Positions 34,193 to 63,794 of a stretch of 64,000 bases of DNA are shown one piece after another. Both the position numbers and the translations under genes were made by a program. Under the pieces are notes generated by a model. The model worked only from the letters and a program-made list of their open reading frames with translations, had not been told where the DNA came from and did not search any database. The stretch's first letter is position 1; every line of letters starts with the position of its first letter. The stretch covers positions 5,146,001 to 5,210,000 of the forward strand of contig NC_085116.1 in NCBI RefSeq assembly GCF_030269925.1, given 5' to 3'. This stretch comes from Bombyx mori. Taxonomy: Eukaryota; Arthropoda; Insecta; Lepidoptera; Bombycidae.

Positions 34193-36448
34193 CTGCTCAA
34201 CAGCAGCCCATAAAATATTAAACATAAGTGTATAATTTTTATACCATTTAATAAAATTTGTAAAAAATAAAATGCTTATTACTTTACCTGAAAAAGACAC
34301 AGAAATCGTAGTGTACATTACTGTAAATAGATTCAGCACTTTTACAAATTAACTTAGACGATACAAATGTTTTTATAATTAGTGTAACCTATACGGAAAA
34401 CTGAAGGAGTAACTGCACCTAACATTACAGGTTGTATTTTTGTCTATTATTGTACCATTGCTTGTAATAAGGAGTGCTCATTTACGCTATAAGCATCACT
34501 AATCACATGAACCACCTACTAAATCTATGAACTTCATATTTTTATCATCTGTGTTTTTCAATACCAAATTTCTATTTCACCAAATTTTCCACTGATTTAT
34601 TTATGTTATGAACATCATCGACTTCTTTTTCATTATTCATGGCTTTTTCATCTTGTGTTTTGCTTTTTTGATCCAATTCTACAATTTCGTGTTTTTTAAT
34701 TAATTCACTTTATAGGTTATGAATCCACTGGATGCTATTTGTGATGTGAAGCGGAACGACGCAGTATGTGTCAGCAATCTCAAGTCGGCAAGGCCCGTTG
34801 ACAAAGCATTATTACAGGATCGACCGGACGTTAAAATATTTCTGCCATTTCGATTTCATTTTTACAAGCCAAAGGATCTTTTCAAGGAAAATACTTACAG
34901 AAATTTCTTAGGTAAGTTCGACTTTTTAAGCTGTGCACGTGTAAATTCAATAATCGATTTCAGTAACTTTATTGAATGTAACTGTTTATTTGATTTTAGT
35001 CGCCCCGGGTGGTGATCACGTGCTTAGTTTGGTAGACGAAATATCATACAGTGCTCCACCAGCACCTCCTTTGTCCCAAATGCACGAGCTCTCCCCGGAC
35101 CTATTCTGTAATGGAGACAACAGACCTCCCAATTGCGCAGTCGACTGCCGTTGCACTCATATGATTGATGTTCCATTAAACTCTATAGTTGAGATTGTAC
35201 TCGTTGATGAAGGTGCGTATTTAAAGCTTCATTTGATGACACAAAGCCCTTTATTACTTAAATCAAACCAGTAACACCCAGTCAGAATAGGATCAAAGCG
35301 ATCTGACATTCTTACATTTTTAAATAAAAAAGAATATTGATCAGTTTTACATTCAACGCTTGTCGACTAAGCGAAAACATATTACATGATCCAATTAATT
35401 AAATTCTACAAATAGCTTCGGTGAATGAAACGATAAAATTGCCAATTTCTTCAGGCTCAAAGAAAAAACTCGGAGCGTGTAATCGATTTTGTATCAATTT
35501 GAATCGCTTTCACGTTACAGTGCAATCGCCAAACCTCTCACATCCGTTCCATCTCCACGGCACGTCGTACAACGTCATCGGCATGGGACGGTCCCCAGAC
35601 AAGAATATCAAGAAAATAAACTTGAAACATGCTTTAGATTTAGACAGAAAAGGACTCCTCCACAGACAATACAACTTGCCGCCGCATAAAGATACTCTTG
35701 CTGTACCTAATAATGGATACGTTGTTCTGAGGCTCAAAGCTGATAATCCAGGTAAAACTAGGAAGACTTATTGAAATTAAGCTTTCGGTTGTTTAGTGTC
35801 ATTTCAAGTCAAAAATGTCCCAAGGATCACTATAAATTTAGATTAAAGCTATGACAGTAATTCAGAAAGGTTAATAGTTGCACTTGATTATGAGAAAACG
35901 TGCTGTAAGCATTATATGTATAGTAAGTACTATCCAAGTGAGATCAAAGATATATAATCATTTTACAAATTCAGTCATAAAAATAAAAGTAATTTCATCA
36001 AAATCGATACATTACTCGAGCGAACATATTTCATTGATGATTTGGAATCAGGTACCCTATCATCTTATGATTTATTTTAGTAAATTCTTTCAAGTTCCTC
36101 TCTAGATATTATTTTGATACTCATAATATGAGATTTGCAGAAATGATAATTTGGCATGAAAACCACTCTTTGCTGTCGAGTTAGAACATGAGATGTTATC
36201 ATTCTATAAGTTCATAGTCACTGAATTAATGGCACAGTCATCTATGTCAATGAAGCTAACCATACCATTTCTGATTGATTCCAGGTTATTGGCTCTTCCA
36301 TTGCCATTTCATATACCACATAGTGATTGGCATGAGCCTGATATTACACATAGGAACACAAGGAGACTTACCACCTGTTCCACCGAACTTTCCCCGTTGT
36401 GGGCATCATCTACCGACCATCTCGCCACCGTTTTATCCGATACATTGA
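28834..36448 (+). CDS. Lac2: Laccase 2, cuticular multicopper oxidase (two 3' isoforms; first exon not found)
   Basis: Secreted phenoloxidase that oxidises cuticular catechols to quinones for sclerotisation and pigmentation. Shared exons: 28834-29284, 29846-30130, 30215-30690, 31087-31271; then either set A (31980-33275) or set B (34716-36448). All junctions are GT-AG and keep frame. The shared part codes about 466 residues: a Ser/Gly-rich N-terminal stretch, a Cys-rich segment ([19 protein letters not shown]) typical of insect Lac2, the first copper motif HWHG (30039-30047), then FWHAHTG (30249-30266). Both 3' sets supply HPFHLHG and HCHxxxHxxxxM, so all ten His and the Cys ligand are present. 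The first visible codon is split, so a short upstream signal-peptide exon must exist. Family length suggests only about 30 residues are missing. It probably lies in or beyond the 28.8 kb to the left. Confidence 0.95.
31980..33275 (+). CDS. Lac2: Lac2 3' terminal exon set A (isoform A C-terminus)
   Basis: Three exons: 31980-32175 (196 bp), 32248-32460 (213 bp) and 32887-33275 (389 bp including tga), coding 265 residues. The third exon carries HPFHLHG (32907-32927) and the HCH...H...M block (33141-33176), the type 1 and type 2/3 copper ligands with Met axial position. The preceding shared exon ends at 31271 in phase 0, matching both 31980 and 34716. The reading ends ...[10 protein letters not shown]. 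Compared with set B, the intron inside 'NPG|W' is absent, so the last exon is fused. Use of this set requires polyadenylation after 33275; AATAAA occurs at 34058, 34250 and 34266, and I cannot tell which is used. Confidence 0.93.
33276..34715 (+). other. 3' UTR of Lac2 set A and spacer before set B
   Basis: No coding exon. Contains candidate poly(A) signals AATAAA at 34058-34063, 34250-34255 and 34266-34271, and a T-homopolymer (separate entry). The last ~30 bp lead into the acceptor at 34714-34715. Confidence 0.6.
34118..34188 (+). repeat. 71-nt poly-T homopolymer
   Basis: An uninterrupted run of 71 T lies between the two Lac2 terminal exon sets. It may be a reverse-oriented retroposon tail, or a stretch whose length is poorly resolved in the assembly. 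Confidence 0.9.
34716..36448 (+). CDS. Lac2: Lac2 3' terminal exon set B (isoform B C-terminus)
   Basis: Four exons: 34716-34911 (196 bp), 35000-35212 (213 bp), 35521-35751 (231 bp) and 36285-36448 (164 bp including tga), coding 267 residues. The first two have exactly the same lengths and phases as set A, and the protein is clearly paralogous ([53 protein letters not shown]). All copper ligands are present. It differs from A in charge and in its longer C-terminus ([14 protein letters not shown]). It can only be joined to the shared exons by skipping all of set A. Beetle Lac2 is known to make A and B isoforms this way. Expression here is inferred, but intact frame and splice sites argue that it is functional. 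Confidence 0.92.
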
Positions 36449-39823: not shown

Positions 39824-42800
39824 ATGAACTTGTTTGTGAACTTTGTTTTCATTCTATTGAAGTGTTCGCTCTTACGGGCAGGTAAAATTGAGAATTTTTT
39901 TTTGTTACTATCTTTTTAGTAACGCTCAATATATTTTTCCACACATACATTTTTATTCCATTAAAATGTGAGCATTGACTGCTTGAAACTTCTTTCACTC
40001 AAATAAAATATACAAATCCACAGACTACATTCGTTGATATTAAAAACAGATAAATTGTATTTAGTTTGTTAAAGTTTTTAACATTTATAATCAATAATAT
40101 ATCCCCCTATCTTATAAATTGCTGTGGTGAGCTTGAGAAGTACATAGTTAGCCTGCTGGCTCAAGAAAAAATATGGTTAATTTGAATCTTATACCTTTAA
40201 ACGAGCAACTCTTGTATATTAATATATATATAATCTGAATCTTGGAAACGGCTGCAACGATTTTCATAAAATTTAGTATACAGGGGATTTCGGGGGCGAT
40301 AAATCGATCTAGCTACGATTTATTTTCAGTTGTTTTATTCATGTTGTTTTATTCGTGTTTTCAATAATCAACTCTTCCCGACATCTATTGGCGAATAATA
40401 ATACTATTTTTCTTAATTGAGGGCAACTAACCGCTTTAAAGACACAACAAGATGGCGTTATAAAAAAAAAAACCGAGCAAGGCTCGGTCATCATCTAGTT
40501 CTAAACTTAAACGAAATCAGTCAGTTGCGGATACATTTCAATCAAATGTCAATTTATTTCGAATAAACATAAAAATTCAATTTATTATTTTGTTCATAGC
40601 CCTGACAATTTCAAATGAAGAATCTAAGGCCCCAGAAAATAGAATAATGGGTGGAATAAATGCAAAACCTCATGCACATCCGTACATCGTATCGTTGCAG
40701 ATTAGATTTCTGTTTTTAAAATTGCATATTTGTGCAGGCACATTGCTTAACGAATATTGGGTAAGTTTTGATAAAACGAATTCACTAAATGTTAAATTTT
40801 ATATCCTCCTCCTCCACGCGTCGTTTTCCTCATTACTGACTCCCCCGCTGAATCAGTTTCTCCCGAACGATTTCCCTCCATCTGCTGCGATCCTTAGCTT
40901 CATGAAGGGCTTTGTGGAAGTTGATGTTTAAAGAAGATCGTATTTGGTCCGACTATCTCGTGGGACTGCGTCCTCTGGGATGTTTGGCATCTACCTTTCC
41001 TGTCACCATCAGCTGTTCTAGATTGTGACCCTCTTTACGAGCAATATGTCCGAAGATTTCCAGGACTCTACGAAGGGTTTCTATAAGGCCTTCGTAGGGT
41101 TTATATCCATTATAATGAATGTAAAAATGTTTTTGTCTTTTCTCGCTCTCTTCTTTAACCTGTGTCCAGTCAATGCTGAGTCCAGGTCTCTTCGTGTACA
41201 CTCTATTCTTTTCGGCCTCTTGCCTTTTGCATCAATATTGTGCTGGTCTTAATATAACCGATTTTTTTTAGTCGTAGATATAATTAACACTATTTTTGCT
41301 TTAACGACTGACGAGTCGTCCATGACCACGAAAACCGTAAAGTATTTGAAACGTCAGAAATAATATAATGAAAATAACAAAATTATAGATTAAACCATAA
41401 AAGTGGTTTTAATTTGTTTTAATAAATTTAAAATCTTGAAATAATGTTTGAAATGAATAAAGTTCCGTTTCTAAAATTGGTGGCGCCACATCATACAAAT
41501 TCTTATACAGAAAACTATTTATAAATAATCTTCTCGGTTACATTTATTTGACAAAATTCAAAAAGCCTACCTATCAACAGATCCTGTCTGCCGCCCACTG
41601 TATTCCAAGTTTCTTTCTGATCAAATGGCTCCCGATGGAAGCCATTGCAGGATCAAATAATATCAATCATTTGGCACGAACAGCACAGATTGCCACAATT
41701 TCAAAAAGAATACCGCATCCGCTATTTACCAGGCAAGTACTGATTATTTAAAAAGGAAATTTTCAGGGAGTTCATGGAGAAAATTTGAGTAATTAGTTGA
41801 TTCGAAGGGTGAGGCAGCCATTGTACTTTAAAAATGTGACTTAGAACTCGTGTCTCAAAGTGGGTCGCAGCATTTACGTTATTGATAGGCTTCGATAGGC
41901 GACAGCGACTTTTTTAATAACACAAAAACTAGCAATCGTCAACTCCATTACGTTTCGGTATTGTTGAAATCCCAACAATTAGGTAATTTGAATTAACTTA
42001 TATTTGAATGAAGTCATGAATAATTATAAAGTAGGAATTTTACTGGTTGTAGGACCTCGTGTGAGTCCGCACGGATAGGTACCACCACTCTGCCTATTTC
42101 TGCCGTGAAGCAGTAATGCGTTTCGTTTTGAAGGGTGGGGCAGCCATTATCACTATACTGATATCTTAGAACTCATATCTCAAGCTGGGTGGCAGCATCT
42201 ATTTTGTAGATGTCTATGGGCTCCGGTAACCTCTTAACAACAGGTGGGCTGTGAGCTCGTCCACCTATCTACGCAATAAAAAATTATATAGTTTTATTGG
42301 TCTTCATAAGCATCTCGTGGAGACAGGCAGTGCCTAGTGTGGAGAGTTTTAGCAAACTGTTATGTGTAAATGTTTCAAGGTTAATAAATAAATTATTATT
42401 ACTATCTCTTGTATCTCATCATCCTACTCATTCTACTCGACTCCCTTAAAAAGATGCAACTAATTAAATAGCTCTTTATATTTCGAAATAGACTTAAATT
42501 TTAAGTCGTCATCGTTAAATCGTAATCTTATTTGCTTTTAGTGACATAGCACCTTATGATATAGCGATGCTTAAAACAAGCAAGCCTTTCACTTTCACAA
42601 AAGAAGTTAAACCCATAAATTTACCGGAAAACTCTCAACTTCGACACAAAGACCTTATTCTTGCCGGTTGGGGTGAACTCAGTGAGACGAGCATCATATT
42701 TTCTAACTCACCAAGTAAATTGCAGGAAGTGCGAGTGCAATACATCCCGTATAAAGGTAAACGCAATATTCTAATACATCAAATCAAATTTATTGCACCT

Positions 42801-43985
42801 CAAAATCACCGTGACGTTGTTGCTGTTTTTAGTGGTGGTAGGACCTCTTGTGAGCTCGCACGGGTTCGTACCACCACCCTGCCTATTTCTGCCGTGAAGC
42901 AGTAATGCGTTTCGGTTTGAAGAGCGGGGCAGCCGTTGTAAATATACTTGAGACCTTAGAACTTATATCTCAAGGTGTGTGGCGCATTTACGCTGTAGAT
43001 GTTTATGGGCTCCAGTAACCACTTAACATCTTAGTGGGCTACGAGCTCATCCACCCATCTAAGCAAAAAAAAGGTTAACTTTACCACCGGCTCCAAAAAG
43101 AAGTCAGATTTATAAGAAGAACCGTCGAAATATACGGCCCTCCTGGTGGTGAACGGTAACCGAAGTTTGTGGACATCAGTAATCTGGGAACACAACTGGG
43201 CCCTGCCTATTCCATTTTATTATATTTCTTTTAAACGCTTTCTTCTCTATAGAAATTTAATTTTATTATTGTGCTTCCACTTTTTATCTCGGTAAAGAGA
43301 GAAAATAATAAATTTTTTAGGTCTAGTACTATGTAATTTCATTAATCTATCTATACAGTGATAAAAAAGAAACTTATGAAGGAAACCCTATAATTAGGAT
43401 ATTAATCCGATGTCTGTACTTAACCGACCCTTATAAATTTAATATAAAGAAACACTTTGATGACAATGTATACATGGTACAGGTACAGAGCATAATATTT
43501 ATTAAAATACAAAACATGGCTATCCAAATATTGTCCAAAATAACGTACAATCAGAAGTCTTGAGTGCTATATTGACTAACAAAGAATACTAAATGATTAC
43601 AGAATGTCACGAAGCTATGGAAAACCTTTTTGAAGACGATGTTAGTATTGAAGACATTGAAACTATGAAAGAAAACGTTCACATTTGTACGGGTCCATTA
43701 ACGGGTGGAGTGGCAGCCTGCAGTGGAGATTCCGGCGGTCCACTTATTGAATACATATCTCATTATAACAGCGATAATGCAAAAAAGGAATTCAATTATG
43801 GTAATGACGTAAATAGTAAAGAAAATTCACGTAGAAGCCAAGATGGAAACGCCGATCATAAAACACCATATATAATCGGAATAGTTTCATGGGGATTCGT
43901 ACCTTGTGGAGAACCAGGTGCACCCACAGTATTCACGAATGTTTCTCATTACATAGATTTCATTTATGATCATATCTACGAATGA
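39824..43985 (+). CDS. Secreted chymotrypsin-fold (S1) serine protease, 322 aa
   Basis: Five exons: 39824-39881, 40600-40760, 41581-41732, 42542-42756 and 43603-43985 (tga). Residues 1-19 form a signal peptide. A short propeptide ends at the activation site R34|IMGG, so the zymogen is cut after Arg by a trypsin-like enzyme. The catalytic triad is His79 (SAAHC), Asp130 (YDIAML) and Ser239 (GDSGGP). Cysteines fit the three usual S1 disulfides (42-58, 168-182, 191-220, chymotrypsin numbering). The S1-pocket position six residues before Ser239 is Ala, not Asp, so trypsin specificity is unlikely; chymotrypsin- or elastase-like is more plausible. Residues ~245-284 form an unusual ~40-residue hydrophilic Asn/Lys/Ser-rich loop between GDSGGP and IVSWG. 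Intron 3 uses a GC donor (ag|gcaagt). Introns carry Bm1, RTE and Helitron copies. Digestive or haemolymph role cannot be told from sequence. Confidence 0.9.
40220..40498 (+). mobile_element. Helitron-like element with 3' hairpin, in protease intron 1
   Basis: The 3' end shows a perfect 7-bp stem (accgagc, loop aag, gctcggt at 40472-40488), six bases, then ctag (40495-40498) followed by t, which is the classical Helitron terminus. The left boundary near 40220 is approximate. No coding capacity. Confidence 0.7.
40800..41225 (-). mobile_element. RTE-like LINE 3' relic in protease intron 2
   Basis: Minus-strand frame 41201-40953 reads DWTQVKEE, FGHIARKEGHNLEQLMVTGK and HPRGRSPTR, continuing as WSDQI. 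After a frame change comes LHEAKDRSRWREIVREKLIQ, ending near 40840. These are hallmark C-terminal blocks of lepidopteran endonuclease-reverse transcriptase elements. Only the 3' end remains. Confidence 0.8.
41795..41905 (+). repeat. Bm1 fragment, diverged, protease intron 3
   Basis: 'gattcgaagggtgaggcagcc', 'gtctcaaagtgggtcgcagca' and 'tttacgtt' in Bm1 order. Confidence 0.6.
42040..42285 (+). repeat. Bm1 SINE body, protease intron 3
   Basis: Clean Bm1 body from 'ctggttgtaggacctcgtgtg' to 'gctcgtccacctatctacgca' with A-run; no tRNA-like head. It ends about 255 bp before the exon 4 acceptor. Confidence 0.88.
42830..43075 (+). repeat. Bm1 SINE body, protease intron 4
   Basis: From 'agtggtggtaggacctcttg' to 'catccacccatctaagcaaa' plus A-run; begins about 75 bp after the exon 4 donor. 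Confidence 0.88.
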
Positions 43986-44410: not shown

Positions 44411-47400
44411 CTAATTAAGTAAAACATCGGGAGGTCTATAGCTGCCACACTTTGGTAATGAATCCACAATGGATGTGGGTAATGCCTGTGGAACGTTTAT
44501 CAGGACTGCTGTGGGTAGAGACGAAACAGAACAAGCTCTACATTCGAGTAACCAACTACCTCCGCGGTTTAGTTTGATCCTGACTATTACGAAACCCTTA
44601 TTAGGAACGGATATCGTGTCTTTGATAGGAGGGCTCTGTAGATTCCTGAAAATAAGTAAATAATTACGAAATAATAAAGATTTTATGAAATGTAAATAAA
44701 TATCTGAAAATGCAAATTCTCTAGCGAATCTGTTTTATGGAATTTAATAATAATTTGAAATAAAACGGAGTGCCACATTTTTGACGCGTTTGTCTTTCTG
44801 TGATGGACGTTTGCTATACTTTATCAGACTTATACGAGTTATAAGGTCGTACACATAAAAAATATCCTAATTTTATTAGAGAAGATGATTGGCATTTTCC
44901 GAAAGCCCGAAATCCTCTTACGGTGAGACCTAACCCGTAAACAAACTAGCGTTTCTTTAATTCTGTTAGCTGTTTTTACTTGAAATACATACCTCATTAG
45001 TTTCCCCTCCTTGTCCAATTGAATAAACTTCTCTTTCGTCAAGGGATTTCCATCTTGGCTATGTCCCGTTGCTAGCACCTTCATGCCAAAACCGTGCATG
45101 TGGAAAGTATAGGATTCATCACTTCCATTTCCTAAAATTTAAGGAAGAACAAGTAAATAAATATTTCAAGTTAAACGATACTACCATTCAAATAATGGTT
45201 TACTTTTTTTTATTACTATTGGAGGCAAACGAGCTTACGGTAAGTTGCTACTGTTGCTCATTGATATCAGGAATGACTGAAGCACAGTCTAACCACTCCC
45301 TATTGATAAGACATGGTAATTTATGATATGGATCTTTATATGTATAAAGTCACATAGCTTGAAACGAAGATGCGAACCGACTATAAGACTTCAGGTATGG
45401 GCTACTACGTCCTCAATGACAACGGCTGAAATTTCCATGCAAATCGCTCCTCTGTGTTTGTGTTAAAAGGTCAAGTATCTGTCATGTTGATCTCTCAAGA
45501 CGTCCTTTTTTATTGTTTAGATGGGTGGACGAGCTCACAGCCCACCTGGTGTTGTGATTACTGGAGCCCATAGACATCTACAACGAAAATGCGCCACCCA
45601 CCTTGAGATATAAGTTCTAAGGTATCAAGTATAGTTAGAACGGCTGCCCTACCCATCAAACCGAAACGCATTACTGCTTCACGACAGAAATAGGCAGGGT
45701 AGTGGTACCTACCCGTACTCACAAGAGGTCCTACCACCACTAAATTCAACACCCACCTTCATTAATTAAAGCTATCTCCAACATATCTCCAACGACAGCT
45801 TCCACCGTCTGTATACATTGTATTTCCAATTGCTTGCTCTCATCCCCGACGTTACAAATCAAATTGTCTTTAATTTCCCGAGGCTTCAGTAAAATTGGAG
45901 CGTTCGGGTAAAGAAAACTCTTCTCATTTATTTGTACTACACCTTTGTCTTGAAGAACTGTGAACACGATTAGAATAATAGTAAGTATTACGATTTGTTT
46001 GAATTAAATAATTATTTATAAATTTAAATTAGAATAGTCACTAAATTTCTATAAATTAAACCAGTACATGAATTATTATAAACCACATATAATTAAGGTT
46101 TATTTTAAATTACTAAAATTACAAACACTTAATAATTATATCAAATTAATTATGCCAAGTGCTCGACGATTTGCGTTAGATATTTAATAAACATATTATA
46201 GATAAGTGAAGACATTTACAAAATATATAGTCGACATGATCTACAGGATCAAAAACAGCGTGTCTTGGTTTTTTTTTTGATTTATTTATTGCTTAGATGG
46301 GTGGACGAGCTCACAGCTTAGTGGTGGTTATTGAAGCCCATAGACATCCACAACGTAAATGCCGCCACCCACCTTGATATATGAGTTAAGGCCTCAGTAA
46401 GTTACAAAGGCTGCCCGCCCTTCAAACCGAAACTCATTATTGCTTCACGGCAGAAATAGGCGGGGTGTTGAAACCTAGCCGTGCGGACTCATAAGAGGTC
46501 CTACCACCACTAATAACGCAAATTATAATTTTGCAGGTTTGATTTTTATTACACGATGTTATTCCTTCACCGTGGAAGTCAATCGTGAACATTTGTTAAG
46601 TACGTATTTCATTAGAAAAATTGGTACCCGCCTGCGGGCTTCGAACACCGGTGCATCGCTAGATACGAGTGCACCGGACATATCATCCTTTAGGCCACGA
46701 CGACTTCAACGAAGTGACTAAGCCGAGACTAAAATCTCGCAGGCAGGTACCAATTTGTCTATAGAAATACGTACTAATGTTCACAACGATGACACACGAA
46801 GATTTTATATTTGTGTTATTTCTGATAATACGCCTAAATGTGAGCCAGCACGGGGTAAATGCATCTCACGCTTTTTTAAGGCGAAGTAGTTTTGCGTTTC
46901 ATTTTGTTAGACGAGAAAGCTATTATAGAATACAATTGAAACTTCGATTTTATGTTTCAAGGAGATGGCGTCTTTCGTGTTGGAACCATTTAACATCTGG
47001 TAGGCCGTGAACTTCTTCACCCCTTAAGCGCAATAGAAAATGCCAAACATTAGTTTTAAGAACACTAAACTTAAAAACTTTGATATAATTAATGAACGCG
47101 CTAATTTATGCACCAAGAGTTCTAATCCTCGTTTAATAAAACACTGCAGTCAATAAACTTACATAGTGGAGCTGGATAGTAAGCCTTCTTTGGAATAGCA
47201 TCACTGATGTATCTGAAATCATTTTCCTCTTTAACAGGCTTCTTTCTGTCAATCGATAAATAGATCGATTTAATATCGGAACTGAAAGAATCGTCGCGAA
47301 TCGATTCCAGTGCTTGTCCATTTAACGCTGGCGTATTTTCATCCAATTCGGTGTCTTGCAATTTTTCATCCTGAAAAACAGCAATAGAAGATGTATCACA

Positions 47401-50400
47401 TATTTTCTGAATGTAATTTTATGTGGGTTCACGAGTGCTCATAGGTGTGGTGGTGTCGTCCTAGAGTAGCACTCTACCTCTGTCCGTAGCTACGCCGTGA
47501 AAAGCGAATATCGGATTCAACGGAAAATTGATAACAACGTTCTCTAAGTACCAACGAACTGCTATTGCCAACCGGAATTGGTGATATGGCGTATTGTAAG
47601 CCTAGGCAGGTATCTGGTACCGGATACCATGGACTATTCCTGTCGCAAAACAGTCTTGCATTATTCATTGAAGGGTGAGACGACTGGTGCGGTAAATAAA
47701 ATAAAAAATTCGACCTCAAATCTCAAGATGAGTGGAGGCATTCAAGCAGTTAGTTATATCTAATATGTCTATGGGCTATGATCAAAACTTTTGGTATATA
47801 TGAGTGTAAGACAATCGTATATCAATATTAATCTCCTCCTTGCGTCGTATTCGTCACTGCTGAGTGAGGGTCGTGACCACCATTTTGTATCGCCTTCGCA
47901 TGTACGATCTTTCTATATGAATACATAATAACAAAAAAAAGCTTTCGAAAAATCGAGTCCATACTTAATCACTAGCTAATATTATTTTTTTAATGTAATT
48001 GATACAACACGATTAATGCGTTCCAATTTTGTGCATCATGAAACGACAAATAAGTTTGACAATATGTTTGCTTAGACATGATGACGACTTGGGGTGGACG
48101 AGCTTTCTGCCTAACTGGTGTTAGATGGTTACCTGAGCCCAAAGATATCAACAAAATAAATGCCTTTTTTCAACGCTGGGGAATCCCTTTACGGATACCA
48201 GGTCCCAGGATACTACGCTCGAAGCATCCGCCCCGCAGAACCAACTACCGACTAAGCCCTATCAAGCTCCACCACACCAGCTAACGAAACCAATAGTACC
48301 GCATAGTGCGCACCGAAAGTCCACCTTCACCGGTACCCGTCCTAATGAAAGGACGGGATTTCATTCCCAGGAAAATTCCGAAGGATGCCGTCTCGGGACG
48401 GAATGGACACACCTTGGGTGGCACACAGGGGAGACCTTGTACCCCCTTTTGTGCCCGTCAGCCTCACGACAGACAAGACGACAACCCTCAAAGAGAGATC
48501 TCACCCCAGCAACGCGATTATAAATACCACCACCTACCCGTGCGGACTCACAAGAAGTCGTACCATTTTGCGTGTTTGATTTTTATTACACGGCGTTATT
48601 ACATTGCCGTGGAAGTCAATCGTGAGTATTTGTTAAGTACGTATCTCATTAGAAAAATGAGTACCCGCCTACGAGATTCGAACACCGTTGCATCGCATGA
48701 TACAAGTGCACCGAGCGTTTTATCCTCTAGGCCACGATGACTTCAAATTTCTTTCACAAATCAAATCAAAGTATTACATGGCTTTCTTTCTCTCTACCTA
48801 CAATTCCACAATAAAAAGCCAACCTGATTTTGTAACATAGAAGTATAGTTGAATCCAGAGTATATGAGCATAGATTTGCTACTGAGTCCGCCACAGACTC
48901 CTTGTCCGCTGATTCTTATCCAGTATCCGTTGCTTGGCTGGTCTGCTCTAACCACGACATCCATGCGTTCACCTGAAATAATACATTAAAATATATAGTC
49001 AAACGGCTGTAAAAAACGAATAGGTTGCATTGAAAATAACACTGAGCTAAAATAACTTAAAGTAACCAGAGAGATGTAGTGAGTGATCAATTGTCTGAGC
49101 ACCTGGACATGAGGTTGAGCGACGTACTTCACTGTATCACTGACCGACATAAGTGTCACAAATCACAAAAAAAGGTTGTGACCTTGTGGGGGCGCATCAC
49201 GATGCTCAGCAATAAGCGATAAGTTGAAGGAGGAGGAAGATTTTTTAAGATTAAACTGCTTTGGTACAATGCTTATGTATCTTGTTCCTTCGAACCTAAA
49301 GGCAATAGCAGAAAGCATAGCTCCAAGGTGGTACAAAGCGGGTTTACAACATGCCTTACCACTACCTAAGATAAGATACAAGAGAAAAGATTATGATTAA
49401 ATTTACGGAGTTAGGTTACAGTGTTAGACTGACCATAACTGCAAACGGGAGTAGAAATAAATGACCTCGAGGAATTTTATACTATTGTTACGCCGGTAAG
49501 AGTAACGCCATCTATCGCCGAATAGTCGAACGAATATCGAAGGACCCAGTAGCACCTAGAACGCTAGGTAACTACAACGCCATCTATTGTCAGATAGCGG
49601 AAACACAATACTAGAGATGTGTGGAATGTTCTCGATAATTCTTGGGATGTGATATCGGCTATAAAAGCGATGCAGAGCCAGCAACGCAGTCAGTTAGTAA
49701 TCGGAACTACTCGAAGCGAAACTGCGAACGGATCACCTGAAGCGAAGCGGGAGAAGCGAATTGAAAGTTTTAAAGTGTTTGTAAAGTGTTTTAAGTGTTC
49801 TAAGTGTTGAATATAGTATTCACTTGTGCTTTGGTAGAACTCTTTATTTATCCCGAACCCCAGCGCGTAACAATATCCATCACAATTTCATGATGAATTG
49901 CCGAATTAATAAACCTCCTCTGACTTTAAAGTTTTTTTATTTTTATTTCTTAGATGGCTGGATGAGCTCACGGCCCACCTGGTGTTAAGTGGTTACTGGA
50001 GCCCATAGACATCCACAACGTAAATGCGCCACCCACCTTGAGATACAAGTTCTAAGGTCTCAAGTAGTTACAGTAGTGATGTTAAAGTAAGTGCCGCGAA
50101 AAGCATCAGTACGTTTTAGAGAAAATATCACTAGGCACCAAACACTAGGCAAATGGTTGGGCACAATGAGATAGTCCGCATAATAAAAGATTCTGAATTT
50201 GTTACAATTTGGAATATACTGTTTGAAATAATAAGGTCAATTTCGATTGGACTGCTTACAAAGTTTGAAGAAATGTACATAATTTATATTTTACTACTAC
50301 TAAAAATAAATTACTTTCAAATAAGATTTTCAGCACATCTTTAACTTTGATCACGAAGTGAGTATAATGTGTCATACAATCGAATAAAATATAATAATAT

Positions 50401-53400
50401 CTTACAAAATATTTACATATTTCGTATATTTTAAACATATAAAATCTAGGTTAGCTGTTGCATGTCGTGATGACCTTGCGAGATTATAATCGTAATTATT
50501 TCGCTTTTAAAGAAATCGTATTAATTAATTATTGTTCGATGTTTGTTTTTGGTCAGATTATCTTAACCTGGCGACATCCACCAAATCGAACTTCTACTCT
50601 CAAGCGCTAGAGTTAAATTATCCTACGACTGAAAGGCCCAATAGCTGTGGGCCGGCTCAGCGTCCTGCAGTGGCAAGGTGAAAGATATTCTCCAAAATAA
50701 CTCCAATACAAAACGCTTCAACCTGCTCCGCGGCTGCCTCGAATGTTTTACATTTCATCTAAAGTTATCGTTTCAATTCCAACATGCCCTCCAATCCGTA
50801 AGCTGAAGTACGGCAATTTCATCATTTTTTTTATTGCTTACAGGCCACCTGGTGTTAAGTGGTTACTAGAGCCCGTAGACATTTACAACGTAAATGCGCC
50901 ATCCACCTTGAGATATAAGCTCTAAGGTCTCAAGTATAGTTACAACGGCTGCCCCGCCCTTCAAACCGAAACGCGTTACTGCTTCACGGCAGTTATAGGC
51001 TCCTGACTTATCTAAGAAAAGTCGTAAATCAAACCAGAATTTTGGATATGAAGATCATCTAACGGCCCGTCCCAATTGAGTCACCGTGCTCATTCATCTG
51101 TCATTAATGTTCTGTCTTACTGGGTAGAATAACTGCTGTAGCAATGCCGTTGAGAATCATTGCCGATTCAGAGACATTTAAAGATTGAATGTCAAGGTTT
51201 ATAGCACAGTTAGCATACAAGAAACACTGTGTGAATTTCGCGTCAGTCCCGATCCTCCCGATCCATTAACTCTGCTTTTATGTACCACAAGAACCGGTCA
51301 CCGTCCTCGTCGAAACCGTCACTTGCTATGAAGGACTCGACGAGCGAATTAGCCCATAGACACAGCCCACTGAGTTTCTCGCCGGATCTTGTCAGTGGGT
51401 CGCGTTTCCGATCCGGTGGTAGATTCTGCGAAGCACTGCTCTTGCTAGGGCCAGTGTTAGCAACACTCCCGGTTTGAGTCCCGTGAGCTCCACCTACGTG
51501 TTAGGGTGAAGCTGAAATAGCCTCTCAAGGCTATCAGCTTAGATAGGGGAAAAAACAAGTGTGAATTTCAATAATCACTGTAAATCCCACTACCGGAAAA
51601 CTAAATTTATTTTCCGCCCCAACATACGAAGTAGCACAAAAACACAACGTTGGTAAATAATTAACCAAAACTGTTTGCATTCTTCAAAAGTAAGAGCAAA
51701 CAGTTTATTTCAAAATTAACATTGAAAATGACATTGAACTGTGAATTCTTTTTTTTTTAATTATAATGGCCAATTAACATATTCCGTTTTATTTATTAGC
51801 ATGTGCGTAATTCATTTAAATAATTAAACTTGTTTCTTGAATTGGGTAAAGTAAAGAACTCTATTTTAGTGCAAAAGTAAACTGTTTACAATCTTTTCAG
51901 CTAAAGACCTGCATTTTTGGGAACCAATACGCTAACTAAAACTTTAGTTGATTGTCGTATTTATTATCATATTAGACTTAATGAAGAAAAGTTGTTACTG
52001 GTGGTAGGACGTCTTGTGAGTCTGCACGGGTAGGTACCACCACCCTGCCTATTTCTGCCGTGAAGCAGTAATGTGTTTCAGTCTGAAGGGTAGGGCAGCC
52101 GTTGTAACTATACTAAGATCTTAGAACTTATATCTAAGGGTATAAATGTAAGGGTGGGTGGCGTATTTACGTTGTAGATGTCTATGGGCTCCAGTAACCA
52201 CTTAACACCAGGTGTGCTGTGAGCTCGTTCACACATCAAAGCAATAAAAAATTAAATAAAAGTACGATAGTTGTATTTAAATCAACTAACAGATTTTACT
52301 GATAGAATAGTTTAAAGTTTTAGTAGAGATCCTCTCTTAGTAGAGATGCTCGATTCCATTACAAATGAAAAAACTGTGAGTAAGGTAAATGATCACACAA
52401 CGATTGCTTGATCATTTTAATTCCTAATAATAAAGATGCAATATCGAAAATTACTTTCAAATATTACATTAGTCGTGCCTTGCGGTTGGTTTCACCTGCG
52501 CTCAATTTTAAATCCAGAATGTATGCAACGCGTTTTGATATTCCCGGCTTAGCAAAGCTTACACCACTCCCTCTTCCATAAACTACCAGTCAATTTGTAG
52601 ATTTTTTGGTGTGTAAATTCACGACTCGTCAAACACACTTGATTGAGTGACAAACATACAAACTTTCACATGTAAAATATACTAATATATAATATAAACC
52701 GAGAGTCTTAAGCTCAATTCCCAAGTCAGTCAAATTAATAAGTCAATTTGCTCTTTGTGGGAAATATATAGATTATATTTAAAGGTATTTAATTATATTT
52801 TTCAGTCTCTGTTTCGCAACTACAAAGAACCCTAGTTGGGGGCCAGATGACAAGTCACACTTGTCCCCATTTATTATTTTTATTTCAACCCACAGACATC
52901 CACTCCTGGCAATGGGCCTCCCCAAGGCTCGCCGCAATAACAGTTCCAGCGCAAGGTACTCGGTACTCAACTAATTACTGTTAGCAGACGGTCACATCAT
53001 GATTATCTCTTTTATTTTTCTCCACCTTATCCCACTAGGTAGGGTCGGCACAGTTAATTTTTTCTTCCATTTTCTTCTATCAGCCGTCATCTCAACACTC
53101 ACTCCTCTCATATCGTCATTCACACACTCCATCCACGTCTTCTTCAGTCGACCTCTTCCCCCTCTACCTTGCACTATCATTTCCATACATCTCCTAGTCA
53201 CATGCATCTTCTATCTGCGCATCACATGTCCATACCACGCTAACCGTCCGCTCATCATGATTCCCGCAATTCTTAGGAGTTCGTCGGCCCACATCACGAT
53301 AGACCTACTCAGGCTGCGCTTTCCAGTACGCAATCTCCATACGAGAACTTTTCAGCGCCAGCAGTAATTGTGTGCAGTGCAGTGTTCTTCGAGCAATTTG

Positions 53401-56400
53401 CTCGGCCCAATACCAAATCAGTCTGGCAAGATCTTGTTATTGTATAATAACATCCATATCCATTATTCTGTTATACGTAGGTACTACCACACTGCCTATT
53501 TCTTCATTTCGGTTTTGAAGCTGAACTAGTCGTTGTACTGTAAAGACTGAGTCTTAGAACTCATGTCTCAAGATGGCATTGTAGGCATTACTTAAAGATT
53601 CAGCATTTCGTAGACACCAACCTCGTCTTTTTCGCTGACCACTTACACCAGGTGGGCCGTGAGCTCGTCGCCCCATATTAGCAACAAAAAATAATAAATA
53701 CATACATACATATTTACTAACAATCACGCCACGTTAACTGGTCCCGTGATAAGTTCGTAAAGAACTTGTGTTACAGGTACCAGATAACGGAAATAAATGT
53801 AAGATTTTTATTATACACGTACATATATTTAATATACATCCATAACCCTGGAAAAGACATTTATATTTATCATACAAATATCTTCCCTTGGCGGGATTCG
53901 AACCCGCGACCCCCTTGTATAGTGACCATATCACTTACCACTACACCAGACGGTCGTTAAAACCGTTAAAAACATATGCTCACGAATAATTTATAATTCA
54001 CTTAACCAGATAGAACGTGCGTGTTTCTTTACGTACTATCATAGCCAGGATAGAATAAACTTAATGTGAGCTACAAATTTCCAGTACTAAAAGTGAAATT
54101 AAAATGAAACCGGTTCTCAGTCGACCTTAAACTTAAGCTGCGGACTAGCGCGTGAATCGGTTGCCTTTCTCCTCTCTCGCAATTACAGAGAAAATAATAA
54201 CAATTTTAAAAATGACTGTTGTTTCCGTTAGGCTTTGCAATATTCCTATTTTTTATTGCAGTAGATTGGTGGACGAAGTCCCATCCCGCCAGGTATTACG
54301 TGAGTATCAGGGTTTAAAGGCGACGTTAATGTAGACGAAATACTAAATCTCTGAATATTACCACAGATTACTACCCTAGTACTTATTAGGCTTTCTTACG
54401 ACACGTGTTCCTTGCACTTTCCTGCCGCCAAGCAATAATGTATTCCAACTTGAACAGTAAAAATTGAGATTTAAGCTTGATGTCACAAGCTGGGTGGCCC
54501 ATTCGTTTTCTGAACTCTATGGGCCCTGGATGAGGTATAAACGATCTAAATTGCGGTACCTACCCTTGCGGTCTTACAATATGTCATTCTTAGAAGCTAC
54601 TCAATACCAGACGAGCTAACCCGAAGCAAAATAAAATTCTTAAACCTATAATAATTAATTACTTTAGCAAAACTGATTGACAAAGTCAATTCTACTCTTA
54701 GAAAGTTGTGATAGAAAGGTCGCAATGTATCGAAGAATTAAACACGTAACAAAAAGTACTGATGTGGTTGAAATGTGCTCTTAATAGTGCGTCTTATGCA
54801 ATATTTTCTAATTTACACTCACCGGTTGCATCATAGACACAAAAAACATGACTATACTATTTTATGTAGTTCCAAATTGAATGAAATCACGTATCAGATT
54901 TACACTTTGTTTTCCACGCCGAGCAATGACGGCATGCTGTTTAAGCAGTGCGTTAAAAATTAACATATTAATATATTTCGGTAATACGCGAGGACAGTTA
55001 ATTACAACATAAAATAATGTTTTTCATGCTACACATTATTCGAGGGTTTAGAAATCACGACAAAATAATTAGTTAATTAATAAATACTCTGTGAAACTCT
55101 TTGTGAATCTGGGTCATGAAGCTATGTTAACAAAACAAAGTATGTATTATACTTAGCTAATTCTTAACCTTAACATACCGAGAAAACTAATGCCGCATGA
55201 CGCATTTTTTGATCATAATATTTTGATGTTAGTTTTCAAAGTAATCTACATCTAGTTTAGACTTCGGTGTTCCATAATTTATGATAAAATATGGAAGCAG
55301 TTTACTTATTAACCCTTAAAACTGTTAAACTTCTATTATACCTTCTATCATATATCTTCTATTATGTATATTCTATTATATCTTCTATTATATCAATCAA
55401 ATCATTTTTTGATTCATTAAAAAATGAATTTCTGCGTGTTTCTTTGCTAGTGATTTTACATGCGGAACCTTTACCGTACTCCCAGAGGTCTGTGTTGACG
55501 AAAACAAAATACGCTTGTACTTAGACATTGTAAATGTAACTTACCCGGATACAGTTGAACCTTTCTCGTGGATACAGGCTTGACTGGTTCTCCGTCGGTG
55601 GCAATGATCACAACATCGTGTTTATCAATGCTCATTACAATGGGACATTCAATAGCAATTGCGTTAATAAGCCTCAATCTGTACGCGTAGTCTGGTAGTA
55701 CGAAGAATCTGAAAAAAGCCAATTGTGTAGAGAAAGAGAAATCAGAAAAAATTTAAAAGTCGTTACTCGTCTAAACTTTAAGTCAAAGAGTATTGAACAA
55801 AATCCTCAAAAACATCATGCCAAAGTTTGTTGTTGGATTTTTTATTGCCTTTGGAGGCAGACGAGCATAATAGGCCCTTCTAATGGTGAATTGTTACTGT
55901 CGGTCTTGGATGTTAGCAACGCCAGGTACAAAGCCAAGCCGCTGCCTATACTTTTGCTGGACTTTCACTCAACAACAAAGATACACATTAGTTTCTGATA
56001 TATTTAAATAGTTAACACGCATGGAAATAATATTACTTTTATAAAACACAAATTTACACGTATTTTATTCTTTAAATTAATAATAAGAACAAGGCGGGTG
56101 ATAGTATAGAGCATGTTCAGTAGTTTAATGAACATATTTTACTATAATACGTACTTAGAACTTTCTTCATTGCCATTCACAATTAGAGAATACGGTTTCA
56201 AACGACTTAAGTCTTCGAGATTCCCGGTAATGAAGTGATCGAATTTGGCGGCAATAAGAACCGTTGTTTCTTCGCTCCTGTCATAATCATACAAATTCGA
56301 ATGAGCCTCCAGAGGTTGAGGTTGATTGACTATCAGAGACCCGTACAGTCCATCGCTTTGATGAGTAACTGGAAAAAGAAATAGACAGAACTGGAAATAG

Positions 56401-58333
56401 ATTGATAATGGCAACTCTAAAACCCGACAATTCGTTTATGCTGATCTATGTTCAATCACTAAAAATATAAAAGGTACAAATAATGATTCATTATATACAA
56501 ATGAATCGAAAGCCTTATGCATATCTAGATACGGACTGGTGGGTTTTGATGAAACTTCTTGTGTTCACAAAACTGGAGCCAGAATGAACTAAAAATTCAC
56601 ATTTTTTCCCTGCACTAGCTGACCCCGCAGACTTGGTAGTGCCTCATCGATAAATCAAAAGACCTAAACTTTTGTATAAAATAAACTTAAAACAAAGAAA
56701 AGGAATCCGTCCGACGGGAGACACATCAAAGGGAAAACAAAATTGTTAGTTTTATTTAATTCCGAGCATTTTCATATTTAACTACCTTTTAAACCTTCTC
56801 TGGACTTCCAATAATACAAATAATTCAAGACCAAAATTAGCCAAATCGGTCCAGCCGTTCTCGAGTTTTAACGAGACTAACGAACAGCAATTCATTTTTA
56901 AATATATAGATAGATAATAATAATAATAATCTGTATAAGCTGAGCTCTCATTTTAACTAAACGTACTTCCAGATGCTGACCAGACATACCAGTTGTTTTA
57001 TTTATTCTAAACTAGCAACCCACCCTCGCTTCGCTTCGGAAACTGTAATTTATTATTGATTTCAATGACTATATTATAATGGATGTTATTATACATACAA
57101 ACCTTCCTCTTCAATCACTCTATCTATTAAAAAAACCGCATCAAAATCCGTTGCGTAGTTTTAAAGATTTAAGCATACATAGGGGCAGATACTGGGACAG
57201 AAAAAACGAATTTGTTTTATACTATGTAGTGATTAACGCGGACGAAGCCATGCTATTCGATCGTGCTAACGAGCATAGAAATTAACGTAGATATCATTAT
57301 AATGTACTGATATGACGTATTTTGTTTACCTAATGTTTCATTTAATTGTATGAAAATGCCGGTAGTATTAAAGTCGTAAAACTACGGAGAGTTGTGCTTA
57401 ACTATTTTCGACCAGAAATTTTTAGTTTTTTTTTATTGCTTAGATGGGTAGACGAGCTCACAGCCCACCTGGTGTTAAGTGGTTACTGAAGCCCATAGAC
57501 ATCTACAACGTCAATTCGCCATCCATCTTGAGATATAAGTTCTAAGGTCTCAGTATGAGTGGCGGCATTCAAATCGTAGTATGAATGGGTCACGACGTGG
57601 ACACTGTGGACTTCTTCTGGTTTTCTAAAGGTGTAACAAGAATACTTACTACTGCCTTATTTCGTTGGAGAAGAATTAAAGAACTACCATTACCTGAGTC
57701 TGCATGATAGAAGAAAGTACCAGGAGACGAAGCCCTGAAAGCGTATTTGTATGTCATTCCGTAACTTATGGGACATTGTGTTATCATAGGAACACCATCC
57801 ATATAAGGTGTTCCTTTTTGTTCTATACCATACCAATGAATCGCTAGATCCTGGCCCGGGATTCTGTTGGTCACTTCCACTATTATTATATCATTGACGC
57901 AAGCGACAATTGGAGGTCCCGGGATTAATCCATTCATGGTTAGTGCAGGAGTTCCATCTTCCATTATGGATGGTTCGATATTAATTTTGTACTGACATCG
58001 TCTCGGTTTCACGTTGAACTTGCAAGGTCGGTGACACGATCGATCTACATAATTAATATATAAATTAAAAACTTAAACAATCAGCTCAAAATGTACACAT
58101 ACTATAATATACTTTATAAGATTATGTTAATTCATTCCAAAAAAATAAGCTTTGTAGACTATCATATATTATATTTGTAGTTAAACTAGAAATTGAATTA
58201 CAAACAAACCCGTATTCTTGGTGGTGTCTTCAAAAAGGAGGTTCGTCGCCATCGGAGCGAAACTCTCCAACGATGCTTTTCCATTATTACTGATGTTAAT
58301 AAAAATAAATAAACAAAAAATAAACACTTTCAT
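44411..58333 (-). CDS. MCORP: Multicopper-oxidase-related protein lacking most copper ligands, 594 aa
   Basis: Nine exons, all GT-AG and in phase: 58333-58210, 58044-57694, 56368-56155, 55708-55545, 48972-48824, 47370-47163, 45957-45757, 45131-44993, 44645-44411 (tag). Residues 1-19 are a signal peptide, so the protein is secreted. The fold is that of a three-domain laccase (LIPGPPIVACVND, PISYGMTYKYAF, SDGLYGSL, LRLINAIAIECP, ATDGEPVKPV, KDTISVPNKGFVIVRI). Copper motifs are broken: HWH is HWY (111-113), HxH is HAD (155-157), HPxHxHG is YTFHMHG (478-484), and HCHxxxH is ECRACSV (551-557). Five or so ligands remain of eleven, so oxidase activity is very unlikely. Insects have a conserved, essential MCO-related protein (MCORP) defined by missing copper ligands; orthology is my inference. 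Introns are packed with Bm1 and a solo LTR. Confidence 0.88.
45200..45305. repeat. Short interspersed repeat fragment (ggaggcaaacgagc family)
   Basis: 'tttttttattactattggag' followed by 'gcaaacgagcttacgg' and 'taagttgctactgttgctc' resembles the segment at 55838-55965. Both lie in MCORP introns; element class not resolved. Confidence 0.45.
45508..45741 (-). repeat. Bm1 SINE abutting the MCORP exon 7 splice donor
   Basis: Reverse-orientation Bm1 body from 'ttttattgtttagatgggtg' to 'ctcacaagaggtcctaccac'. Its edge lies only ~15 bp from the donor of exon 7 (GT at 45755-45756), on the same strand as the gene. Confidence 0.88.
46280..46715 (-). repeat. Bm1 SINE, near full length with tRNA-like head, MCORP intron 6
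   Basis: Poly-T and 'attgcttagatgggtggac' on the left. The tRNA-like head lies on the right ('gggcttcgaacaccgg', 'cctttaggccacgacgactt'). A segment after 'gagctcacag' is deleted. Confidence 0.85.
46841..47035 (+). repeat. Strongly diverged Bm1-like fragment
   Basis: Weak Bm1 order: 'gtgagccagcacggggtaaat', 'tttaaggcgaagtagttttgc', 'tttcaaggagatggcg', 'aacatctggtaggccgtgaac'. Old copy in MCORP intron 6. Confidence 0.45.
47430..47785 (+). repeat. Strongly diverged SINE-like segment
   Basis: 'ttcattgaagggtgagacgac', 'caaatctcaagatgagtggag' and 'atgtctatgggct' occur in Bm1 order but diverged. It lies in MCORP intron 5. Confidence 0.45.
48078..48745 (-). repeat. Bm1 SINE interrupted by an unidentified ~350-bp segment
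   Basis: Bm1 tail side at 48078-48165 ('ggggtggacgagctttctgcc') and head side with tRNA-like part at 48520-48745 ('gagattcgaacaccgttgc', 'cctctaggccacgatgactt'). Between them (about 48166-48519) is a GC-richer foreign stretch I do not recognise. It replaces about 110 bp of Bm1 middle, so this may be more than a simple insertion. The right end is ~80 bp from MCORP exon 5. Confidence 0.65.
48973..49485. other. MCORP intron 4, nothing recognised
   Basis: No exon or known repeat. A minus-strand open frame at 49163-49381 has no family resemblance. Confidence 0.4.
49486..49872 (+). mobile_element. Solo LTR of an LTR retrotransposon, MCORP intron 4
   Basis: 387 bp bounded by the perfect inverted repeat tgttacgc...gcgtaaca. 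It contains the parts of an LTR in order: TATA box (gctataaaagc at ~49659), an arthropod initiator-like 'cagtcagtt' about 25-30 bp on, and a poly(A)-signal-like stretch (ctctttatttatcc) near the end. No second LTR or internal region occurs nearby. The flanks ctat/atat may be a decayed 4-bp target duplication. Confidence 0.78.
49930..50075 (-). repeat. Bm1 SINE, tail half, MCORP intron 4
   Basis: 'ttatttcttagatggctgg', 'gtggttactggagcccatag' and 'ccaccttgagatacaagttc' in reverse orientation. Confidence 0.85.
50825..51003 (-). repeat. Bm1 SINE, tail half, MCORP intron 4
   Basis: Poly-T and 'attgcttacaggccacctgg' through 'ctgcttcacggcagttatagg'; lacks the first ~25 bp after the tail and the tRNA-like head. 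Confidence 0.85.
51280..51550 (+). repeat. LINE 3'-tail repeat (Jockey-like, second subfamily)
   Basis: 'ctgagtttctcgccggatct', 'gcgaagcactgctcttgct', 'gtgagctccacctacgtg' and 'gctgaaatagcc', ending 'ggggaaaaaac'. Same family as 315-495 and 9070-9172; MCORP intron 4. Confidence 0.65.
51998..52250 (+). repeat. Bm1 SINE body, MCORP intron 4
   Basis: 'ctggtggtaggacgtcttgtg' to 'gctcgttcacacatcaaagca' with A-rich end; contains a small internal duplication around 52138-52152 (aagggt...aagggtgggtgg). Confidence 0.88.
52883..53420 (-). mobile_element. RTE-type LINE relic, split by a nested element
   Basis: On the minus strand 53420-53263 reads WRLRTGKRSLSRSIV, MWADELLRIAGI, corresponding to the RTE C-terminal 'rtGrR..grP..RW.DdL..vAG' block. 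After the nested insertion, 52990-52883 continues with the 3' end 'ggagtggatgtctgtgggttg'. Same class as 5061-5390. Confidence 0.65.
52995..53262 (-). mobile_element. 5'-truncated LINE copy nested in the RTE relic, 10-bp target duplication
   Basis: The element (53005-53252) is flanked by exact catcatgatt at 52995-53004 and 53253-53262. The minus-strand frame is still open for 71 codons: MHVTRRCMEMIVQGRGGRGR, KKTWMECVNDDMRG, then DRRKWKKKL. It is a LINE C-terminal end and not a host gene. It is highly similar to 22444-22708. Confidence 0.8.
53474..53690 (+). repeat. Diverged Bm1 SINE body, MCORP intron 4
   Basis: 'taggtactaccacactgcc', 'gactgagtcttagaactcatg' and 'ccaggtgggccgtgagctcg', ending in an A-run. 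Confidence 0.7.
53700..53958 (-). repeat. tRNA-derived SINE (second family), MCORP intron 4
   Basis: On the minus strand the head (53955-53885) is tRNA-like, with an A-box region tggtgtagtggtaagtg and a perfect B-box-type 'gcgggttcgaatcccgcc'. The acceptor-stem 5' strand (gaccgtc) has no complement downstream, so it is not a functional tRNA. A ~190-bp body follows, ending in (atgt)n-like repeats. Confidence 0.7.
54250..54545. repeat. Two strongly diverged Bm1-like fragments, opposite orientation
   Basis: About 54250-54345 resembles reverse Bm1 tail ('tattgcagtagattggtggac'). About 54418-54540 resembles forward Bm1 ('ctgccgccaagcaataatg', 'aagctgggtggcccattcg', 'ctatgggccctgg'). Confidence 0.45.
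54546..55544. other. MCORP intron 4, with short tandem repeat
   Basis: Imperfect tandem array of a ttctattatat-like unit at about 55331-55398; otherwise nothing recognised. Confidence 0.5.
55838..55965. repeat. Short interspersed repeat (ggaggcagacgagc family), MCORP intron 3
   Basis: 'ttttttattgcctttggagg', 'cagacgagcataataggccc', 'gttagcaacgccagg' and 'gccaagccgctgccta'. Related to 45200-45305. Class unknown. Confidence 0.5.
56615..56910 (-). mobile_element. Non-autonomous Helitron-like element, full length, MCORP intron 2
   Basis: On the minus strand it starts tctatatatttaaaaatg and ends ggggtcagctag, followed by t. Same family as 9915, 18276 and 25576. Two bases of host TA-like context are compatible with Helitron insertion between A and T. 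Confidence 0.65.
57012..57232 (-). mobile_element. Second Helitron-like element, MCORP intron 2
   Basis: On the minus strand it begins tcactacatagtataaaac and ends cgaagcgagggtgggttg, ctag, then t. Internal 'tccgttgcgtagttttaaag'. The open frame through it is incidental. Confidence 0.55.
57425..57562 (-). repeat. Bm1 SINE, tail third, MCORP intron 2
   Basis: Poly-T, 'attgcttagatgggtagacg', 'ggttactgaagcccatagac', 'gatataagttctaaggtct'. Lies ~130 bp downstream of the exon 2 donor. Confidence 0.85.
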
Positions 58334-62481: not shown

Positions 62482-63125
62482 TTAAAATTTAACTACAGTT
62501 ACAAATTTATACATGGCCTGCAGAGTTGTGGCAAAGGTGTTCATGTTCACAGGTACTATGTCAGCTGCCAACAATTCGACCGGCCTTTGAGCCTGATGGA
62601 GCATCACATAAATCATCTTCATTTCCCTCAAAGCGAAATTCTCCCATCCACAGCAATAAATCGCTGTTTCAAATGCTTCAGACGCATTGACTAGTTTCTG
62701 GCACAGAAAGCAGTAAAGGAAGAATAACATAAAACAAAAAACGAATATCGGAATGAATTTAAACCATTCGAGAATGGGTAAATACAATATTAAAAGAATA
62801 GTTAGTGCGTTTGAACCGAAATTGACCCCCAGTGGAACGCTGTACAATGATTTGTAATTGTCTACAACTGATAAAGTCAAAGAATGGCGTTTGACTAAAA
62901 TTGGCAACGTTTCTTTCACATATGCCTGATGTTCTTCTAAATTCTCATAATTATTTAGAGCCATTATCTCGTCGGCCAAAATCTGAAACATCACGGCCGT
63001 GTGTGCTATAAAACACAGAAGTAGAGCTTGAAAGTTTAAGACAACCGTCATTATTGAGAATTCTTGCATGCAGAGAATAGTCAAGCATAGTTCTCGATTT
63101 GGGGAGACGGTCAATGGTTCCATTC
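62482..63125 (-). CDS. Odorant receptor, C-terminal exon(s) only (partial)
   Basis: Seven-transmembrane insect odorant receptor, a ligand-gated channel subunit working with Orco in olfactory neuron membranes. About 213 residues are visible, ending at taa 62482-62484; the acceptor AG is at 63127-63126, so the exon starts at 63125 in phase 2. Long hydrophobic segments (around VLNFQALLLCFIAHTAVMF and LTILLILYLPI followed by IPIFVFCFMLFFLYCFLC) are membrane helices. The C-terminal signature is intact: AIYCCGWE, then KMIYVMLHQAQRP, then PVNMNTFATTLQAMYKF. The usual length is ~400 residues, so the N-terminal half must lie upstream. I see no such exon between 63126 and 64000, so it lies beyond the window or has been lost. 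Carrying the whole C-terminal half on one uninterrupted exon is somewhat unusual for lepidopteran receptors. Confidence 0.85.
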
Positions 63126-63794
63126 CTGAAATAATAAAAGTTTTACATTTTTATTAATTTAGTTTCATGCTCCAGACCATACCTGGACAGATTATACCTG
63201 GAACTAGACCAGGAAAACGCTAAGAAAAAGATGAAAATGTTTATGGACCAAACTACTTTATTAAAGATATATAATACAAATACGAATTAAATATCTAAGC
63301 CATTCTCTATCAGTCGTCCAAGGGTTGGTGTAGTAGAGAGTACATTGCTTCTTGAGAAAATTATTTAACACTAACACCATACATATAAAAATCATCAAGT
63401 TATTGAGAATCATAACTTATTTTGAATAGTGCAGATTCTTCTATTGTAAGTACCCCAAATTAATTGTTAAATGTGTTTGTTATTAGAGCCTCCCTAATAC
63501 CACATATTTAGCCTACTGATAATTTCCAACCTGTGGGTTGTGAGCTCATTCACCTATCTAAAGAATAAAGAAGTAATTAATCAAAGGACGTTAAAAAATT
63601 TAAATACCCGATTTCTTTTATGAAAAATGTACAGACTATAAAATTAAAATCCGATATTTATAAACATCACAAAGTAGCTCTCCACGATATGCCAAGATAC
63701 TTTTTTAGCCCCTGTAATGGCAGACCCTGGACGTCAGCAATGATAGAAACTGTTAACCGTTTAATATTGTCCACAAGTCTCGTTTGAAGGAGGA
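63126..63794. other. Intron or upstream flank of the odorant receptor; Bm1 fragment
   Basis: A ~45-bp Bm1 remnant (tgggttgtgagctcattcac) lies at about 63525-63570. No N-terminal receptor exon recognised. Confidence 0.45.

Follow-up and report, generated by a model that had tools for sequence, protein, structure and literature searches.

The gene on the minus strand at positions 58,333-44,411 of the 64,000-nucleotide Bombyx mori stretch analysed here (the window) very likely encodes, judging from the protein sequence, the moth member of the insect multicopper oxidase-related protein (MCORP) family. The reading that we favour, and consider probable, is that of an intact paralogue of laccase in which six of the eleven copper ligands have been lost; the protein probably performs no oxidation and would function by binding to a partner within the secretory pathway. 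What is new here is that an intact laccase 2 gene lies approximately 8 kb from the MCORP gene and has three introns in common with it; this laccase 2 gene possesses every ligand and two alternative sets of 3' exons.

The MCORP coding sequence is distributed over nine minus-strand exons, which are joined in phase across eight GT-AG introns and specify 594 amino acids followed by a stop codon. Exon 1 (58,210-58,333) carries the start codon and the signal sequence, while exon 2 (57,694-58,044) encodes the Cys motif and most of cupredoxin domain 1, including the HWY and YHAD motifs. These are followed by exons 3 (56,155-56,368), 4 (55,545-55,708), 5 (48,824-48,972), 6 (47,163-47,370), 7 (45,757-45,957), 8 (44,993-45,131) and 9 (44,411-44,645, including the stop codon). 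Three Pfam multicopper-oxidase domains are recognized above the cut-off (E-values of 2.5e-34, 2e-18 and 4.8e-18); among solved structures, PDB 8r7i ("Laccase BP76") is the closest in sequence. Within the introns, which total 12,138 bases, stops make up 6.6% of codons (795 of 12,122 in three frames); a frame of 594 codons without any internal stop would arise at this rate with P of approximately 3e-18, so that the open frame is not due to chance. The nine in-phase exons, the 594-residue product and the clean frame proposed in an earlier sequence-only reading of this DNA are thus borne out.

Two further elements are located within the span of the gene. A repeated element of approximately 185 bases at 45,561-45,745, probably a SINE, matches 14 other pieces of the window, of which six fall inside the MCORP span. 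Intron 4 contains a match to the mir-2818 precursor (53,838-53,897, minus strand, as for MCORP), which scores 92.9 bits against Rfam RF03630 (gathering threshold 90) and agrees with the Rfam consensus at 59 of 60 bases; nothing else in the window is similar to its 350-base surroundings. A silkworm paper (PMC11989355) mentions a bmo-mir-2818.

The copper ligands were mapped in an alignment of the protein with four sequences, namely the two forms of laccase 2 encoded in this window (2A and 2B), PDB 8r7i and fragments of the laccase PDB 3v9e, all of which carry His (or the Cys) in all eleven ligand columns. The corresponding residues of MCORP are H111, Y113, H155, D157, Y478, H481, H483, E551, C552, R553 and V557. 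Against the ten His and one Cys ligand that define an active laccase, five of eleven are therefore retained (H111, H155, H481, H483 and C552) and six replaced (Y113, D157, Y478, E551, R553 and V557), while the axial Met has become Thr562. Changes are found at each of the four motifs, as the sequence-only reading had described together with the five surviving ligands and the lost Met: HWH becomes HWY (57,830-57,838), HxH becomes HAD (57,698-57,706), HPxHxH becomes YTFHMH (45,094-45,111) and HCHxxxH becomes ECRACSV (44,525-44,545), all on the minus strand. When the columns are named after Fet3p, which lies outside the alignment, by motif order from the legend of Peng et al. (PMC4203857), both type-2 His (Fet3p H81 and H416) are present as H111 and H481, whereas six of the nine type-1 and type-3 ligands are replaced. 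The type-1 Cys itself is present, since C552 aligns with the laccase Cys of all four comparison sequences; together with C555 it makes the former type-1 loop a CxxC motif, C-R-A-C (44,531-44,542, minus strand). We infer that the type-1 site (Y478, C552, V557 and T562) and the electron relay, where His-Cys-His has become E551-C552-R553, are broken, which makes laccase chemistry unlikely.

Assignment to the MCORP family is supported by this ligand pattern, with the type-2 His kept and the relay broken, by part of a Cys-rich motif, by the presence of the three cupredoxin domains in the Pfam search and by a tree of five sequences. Published MCORPs are described as keeping both type-2 His and missing the His-Cys-His (PMC4203857). 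The Cys motif of the moth protein (C45, C49 and C58) aligns with a stretch of 14 residues of laccase 2. Of the seven Cys in the Cys-rich region of laccase 2, three are present; of the missing four, three fall in an absent 24-residue stretch and one aligns with Ser. In the maximum-likelihood tree, a branch with 95% ultrafast bootstrap unites laccase 2 and 8r7i and separates them from both MCORP and the fungal laccase. With five sequences on long branches, and none of them another MCORP, this tree speaks only against MCORP nesting within the laccase 2 and 8r7i group. MCORPs are also described as being without the type-1 Cys (PMC4203857), and the retention of C552 departs from this statement, which we take to be a generality rather than a defining feature; because of it, membership stays at very likely. 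A pattern search for relatives gave zero matches in viral contigs and 23 in genome contigs, none of which was a relative by tblastn.

The family, and its presence in moths, are already known, and in this respect the analysis is mostly confirmation. Peng et al. (2014; PMC4203857) report MCORP in six insect orders including Lepidoptera and searched the Manduca genome, and the legend of their tree names Bm, Ms and Danaus, the genes being unspecified in that legend. In addition, a pea aphid study (PMC12313077) drew another 16 MCORPs from a 14-species set in which Bombyx, Papilio and Manduca are represented. The identification of a moth MCORP in the sequence-only reading very likely holds, but the moth member is no novelty, since moth MCORP is already in print.

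The hydrophobic run at the N-terminus of the protein is short, with a hydropathy peak of 1.32 over 19 residues and of 2.91 over 11 residues; domain 1 contains a further stretch, at residue 81, that reaches 1.67. Judged by these values, the N-terminus resembles a cleavable signal more than an anchor, and the G-K-A at residues 18-20 would suit the (-3,-1) rule. The MCORPs of Tribolium and Anopheles are, by comparison, predicted to have uncleaved N-terminal signal anchors (PMC4203857).

Outside the ligand columns, 60 of the 84 positions that are invariant in the four comparison sequences are kept in MCORP. The ligands are kept less often (five of eleven), although the excess of their loss over that at other invariant positions is not significant (Fisher P 0.096). 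By domain, with limits set by us (residues 31-177, 178-330 and 405-594) and with domain 3 columns that depend on the 3v9e fragment, the invariant positions kept are 33 of 35, 20 of 31 and 7 of 16 (domain 1 versus domain 3, P 0.00015). When the fungal sequence is omitted, the counts become 43 of 83, 30 of 62 and 25 of 67, and the difference between domains 1 and 3 is not significant (P 0.099). As forms of a single gene with an identical domain 1, laccase 2A and 2B count once, so that the comparisons effectively comprise three independent sequences with the fungal laccase and two without it; the stronger conservation of domain 1 is suggestive only.

Laccase 2 is located on the plus strand, where form A, which has all eleven ligands and the axial Met, is modelled as seven exons from inside one exon to the stop codon (28,845-33,275). 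An alternative 3' set of four exons (34,716-36,448) yields form B, again with 11 of 11 ligands. The model omits the first exons of the gene, and each form is open to its stop. Set A consists of three exons, the last of which corresponds to two of the four exons of set B. The two genes are arranged tail to tail, with 7,962 bases separating the stop of laccase 2B from that of MCORP. Laccase 2 in the same window went unmentioned in the sequence-only reading. A trypsin-like serine protease lies between the two genes (40,464-43,985, plus strand), the three exon pieces scanned, all within 40,464-43,982, giving E-values of 0.0004, 0.007 and 2e-13, of which the second falls below the Pfam cut-off; an odorant receptor (7tm_6) exon is found at 62,485-63,150 (minus strand, E 2e-23).

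Three of the eight MCORP introns, those following exons 4, 6 and 7, fall at the same alignment column and in the same phase as introns of laccase 2, a number that was reached in none of 200,000 random intron placements. A fourth pair is in phase 0 in both genes; the alignment is poor there and places the two introns 25 columns apart. MCORP is identical to laccase 2A at 180 of 526 aligned positions (34%), to 2B at 178 of 527 and to 8r7i at 166 of 523. The shared introns, together with the adjacency of the genes, indicate that MCORP and laccase 2 are paralogues that remain neighbours. A literature search for this neighbourhood found no report, which is weak evidence of absence: the available portion of a study on the laccase-2 neighbourhood in Anopheles does not contain the word MCORP, and the strings "synten" and "chromosom" are absent from the main text of PMC4203857.

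The N-terminal signal would direct MCORP into the secretory pathway, where, laccase chemistry not being expected with the type-1 site and the relay broken, the protein may bind a partner via its conserved scaffold, using the scaffold surface and chiefly that of domain 1. Such a non-redox binding role is plausible, given that recombinant Tribolium MCORP showed no oxidase activity and contained approximately 1 Cu per 17 molecules (PMC4203857). Knockdown in Tribolium is lethal and prevents oocytes from maturing, with no gross abnormality of morphology, and the gene is expressed at low levels in all tissues analysed (PMC4203857). The earlier description of MCORP as essential in beetles is correct, but the requirement is not universal, since RNAi against the MCORP of the stinkbug Plautia stali is not lethal (PMC7044228).

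Among the alternatives, a rewired pocket, in which H111 and H481 together with D157, H483 and E551 hold one or two metal ions for metal binding or slow iron-redox chemistry in the manner of SKU5 and LPR1, appears unlikely, although all five site positions carry possible metal ligands. D157 and E551 occupy the columns of Fet3p H128 and H483, which the Plautia stali MCORP retains along with H418 and the type-2 pair (PMC7044228); the two carboxylates among the six replacements would, however, fall on these two positions by chance in 1 of 15 cases (calculated by hand). Plant SKU5 has neither type-1 nor type-3 ligands, yet excess apoplastic iron builds up in the sku5 sks1 double mutant, and LPR1 is said to be without a type-1 centre and yet to be a ferroxidase (PMC10315306), so that missing ligands need not mean the absence of a role in metal chemistry. 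Against this, the recombinant Tribolium protein, besides being inactive, held little Cu, Zn or Fe (PMC4203857). We also regard it as quite unlikely that moth MCORP, instead of being a dead laccase, works beside its neighbour laccase 2 with a copper cluster that has been converted into a mixed His/carboxylate pocket (H111, H481, H483, D157 and E551) suited to iron, zinc or another harder metal.

The proximity of the genes invites a further proposal, namely that MCORP serves laccase 2 as a regulatory or structural partner while cuticle is formed, binding either laccase 2 or its catechol substrates. The tail-to-tail arrangement and the common introns would suit this, as would the planthopper MCO6/MCORP, whose developmental expression resembles that of laccase 2 and whose RNAi is lethal (Ye et al. 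2015, quoted in PMC7044228). Adjacency may be no more than a relic of duplication, and the Tribolium MCORP phenotype (PMC4203857) differs from the soft unpigmented cuticle that follows laccase-2 knockdown (PMC7044228); we hold such a partnership to be improbable.

That the gene is instead a decaying laccase copy is very improbable. The loss of ligands at all four motifs and the long branch in the tree could be read as decay, but the frame runs for 594 codons with no stop, all eight splice pairs are clean and 60 of 84 non-ligand invariant positions are kept, which argues against a pseudogene. The alternative exons of laccase 2 raise the question of whether alternative exons might likewise restore the ligands of MCORP. 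The laccase-2 exons lie on the opposite strand, and a tblastn search of the window with laccase 2A, 2B and 8r7i (E up to 1) detected no such exon in the MCORP introns; outside both genes it found only one weak MCO-like match, at approximately 10.2 kb (E 0.84). The same search recovered seven of the nine MCORP exons, including the three that bear ligands, and missed exons 1 and 6; exon 8 was found only at E 0.005, which indicates that a short alternative exon could escape it. An active laccase with ligands restored in this way is nevertheless scarcely credible.

The favoured reading, a non-redox binding protein, concerns a family that is reported to be indispensable for a beetle and for a planthopper but not for a stinkbug. 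The active sister laccase 2 within the same 64 kb provides an internal reference for what MCORP has kept (domain 1 and the type-2 His) and what it has lost, and D157/E551 and the laccase-2 neighbourhood are concrete points of interest in the moth protein.

Compared with the MCORPs described previously (PMC4203857), the moth protein is alike in its three cupredoxin domains, retained type-2 His and broken relay and has part of the Cys-rich start, but differs in that it keeps the type-1 Cys, has an N-terminus that looks cleavable and is encoded by a gene adjoining laccase 2. Insect laccase 2 (MCO2), at 28.8-36.4 kb in the window, has the same fold, 34% identity and the three common introns, but, unlike MCORP, possesses 11 of 11 ligands, the axial Met and alternative 3' exon sets. 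The plant SKU5/SKS proteins are likewise MCO relatives without type-1 and type-3 ligands, and SKU5 keeps the type-2 pair (PMC4203857). In contrast to MCORP, however, they are closer to plant ascorbate oxidases (PMC4203857) and are GPI-anchored (PMC10315306).
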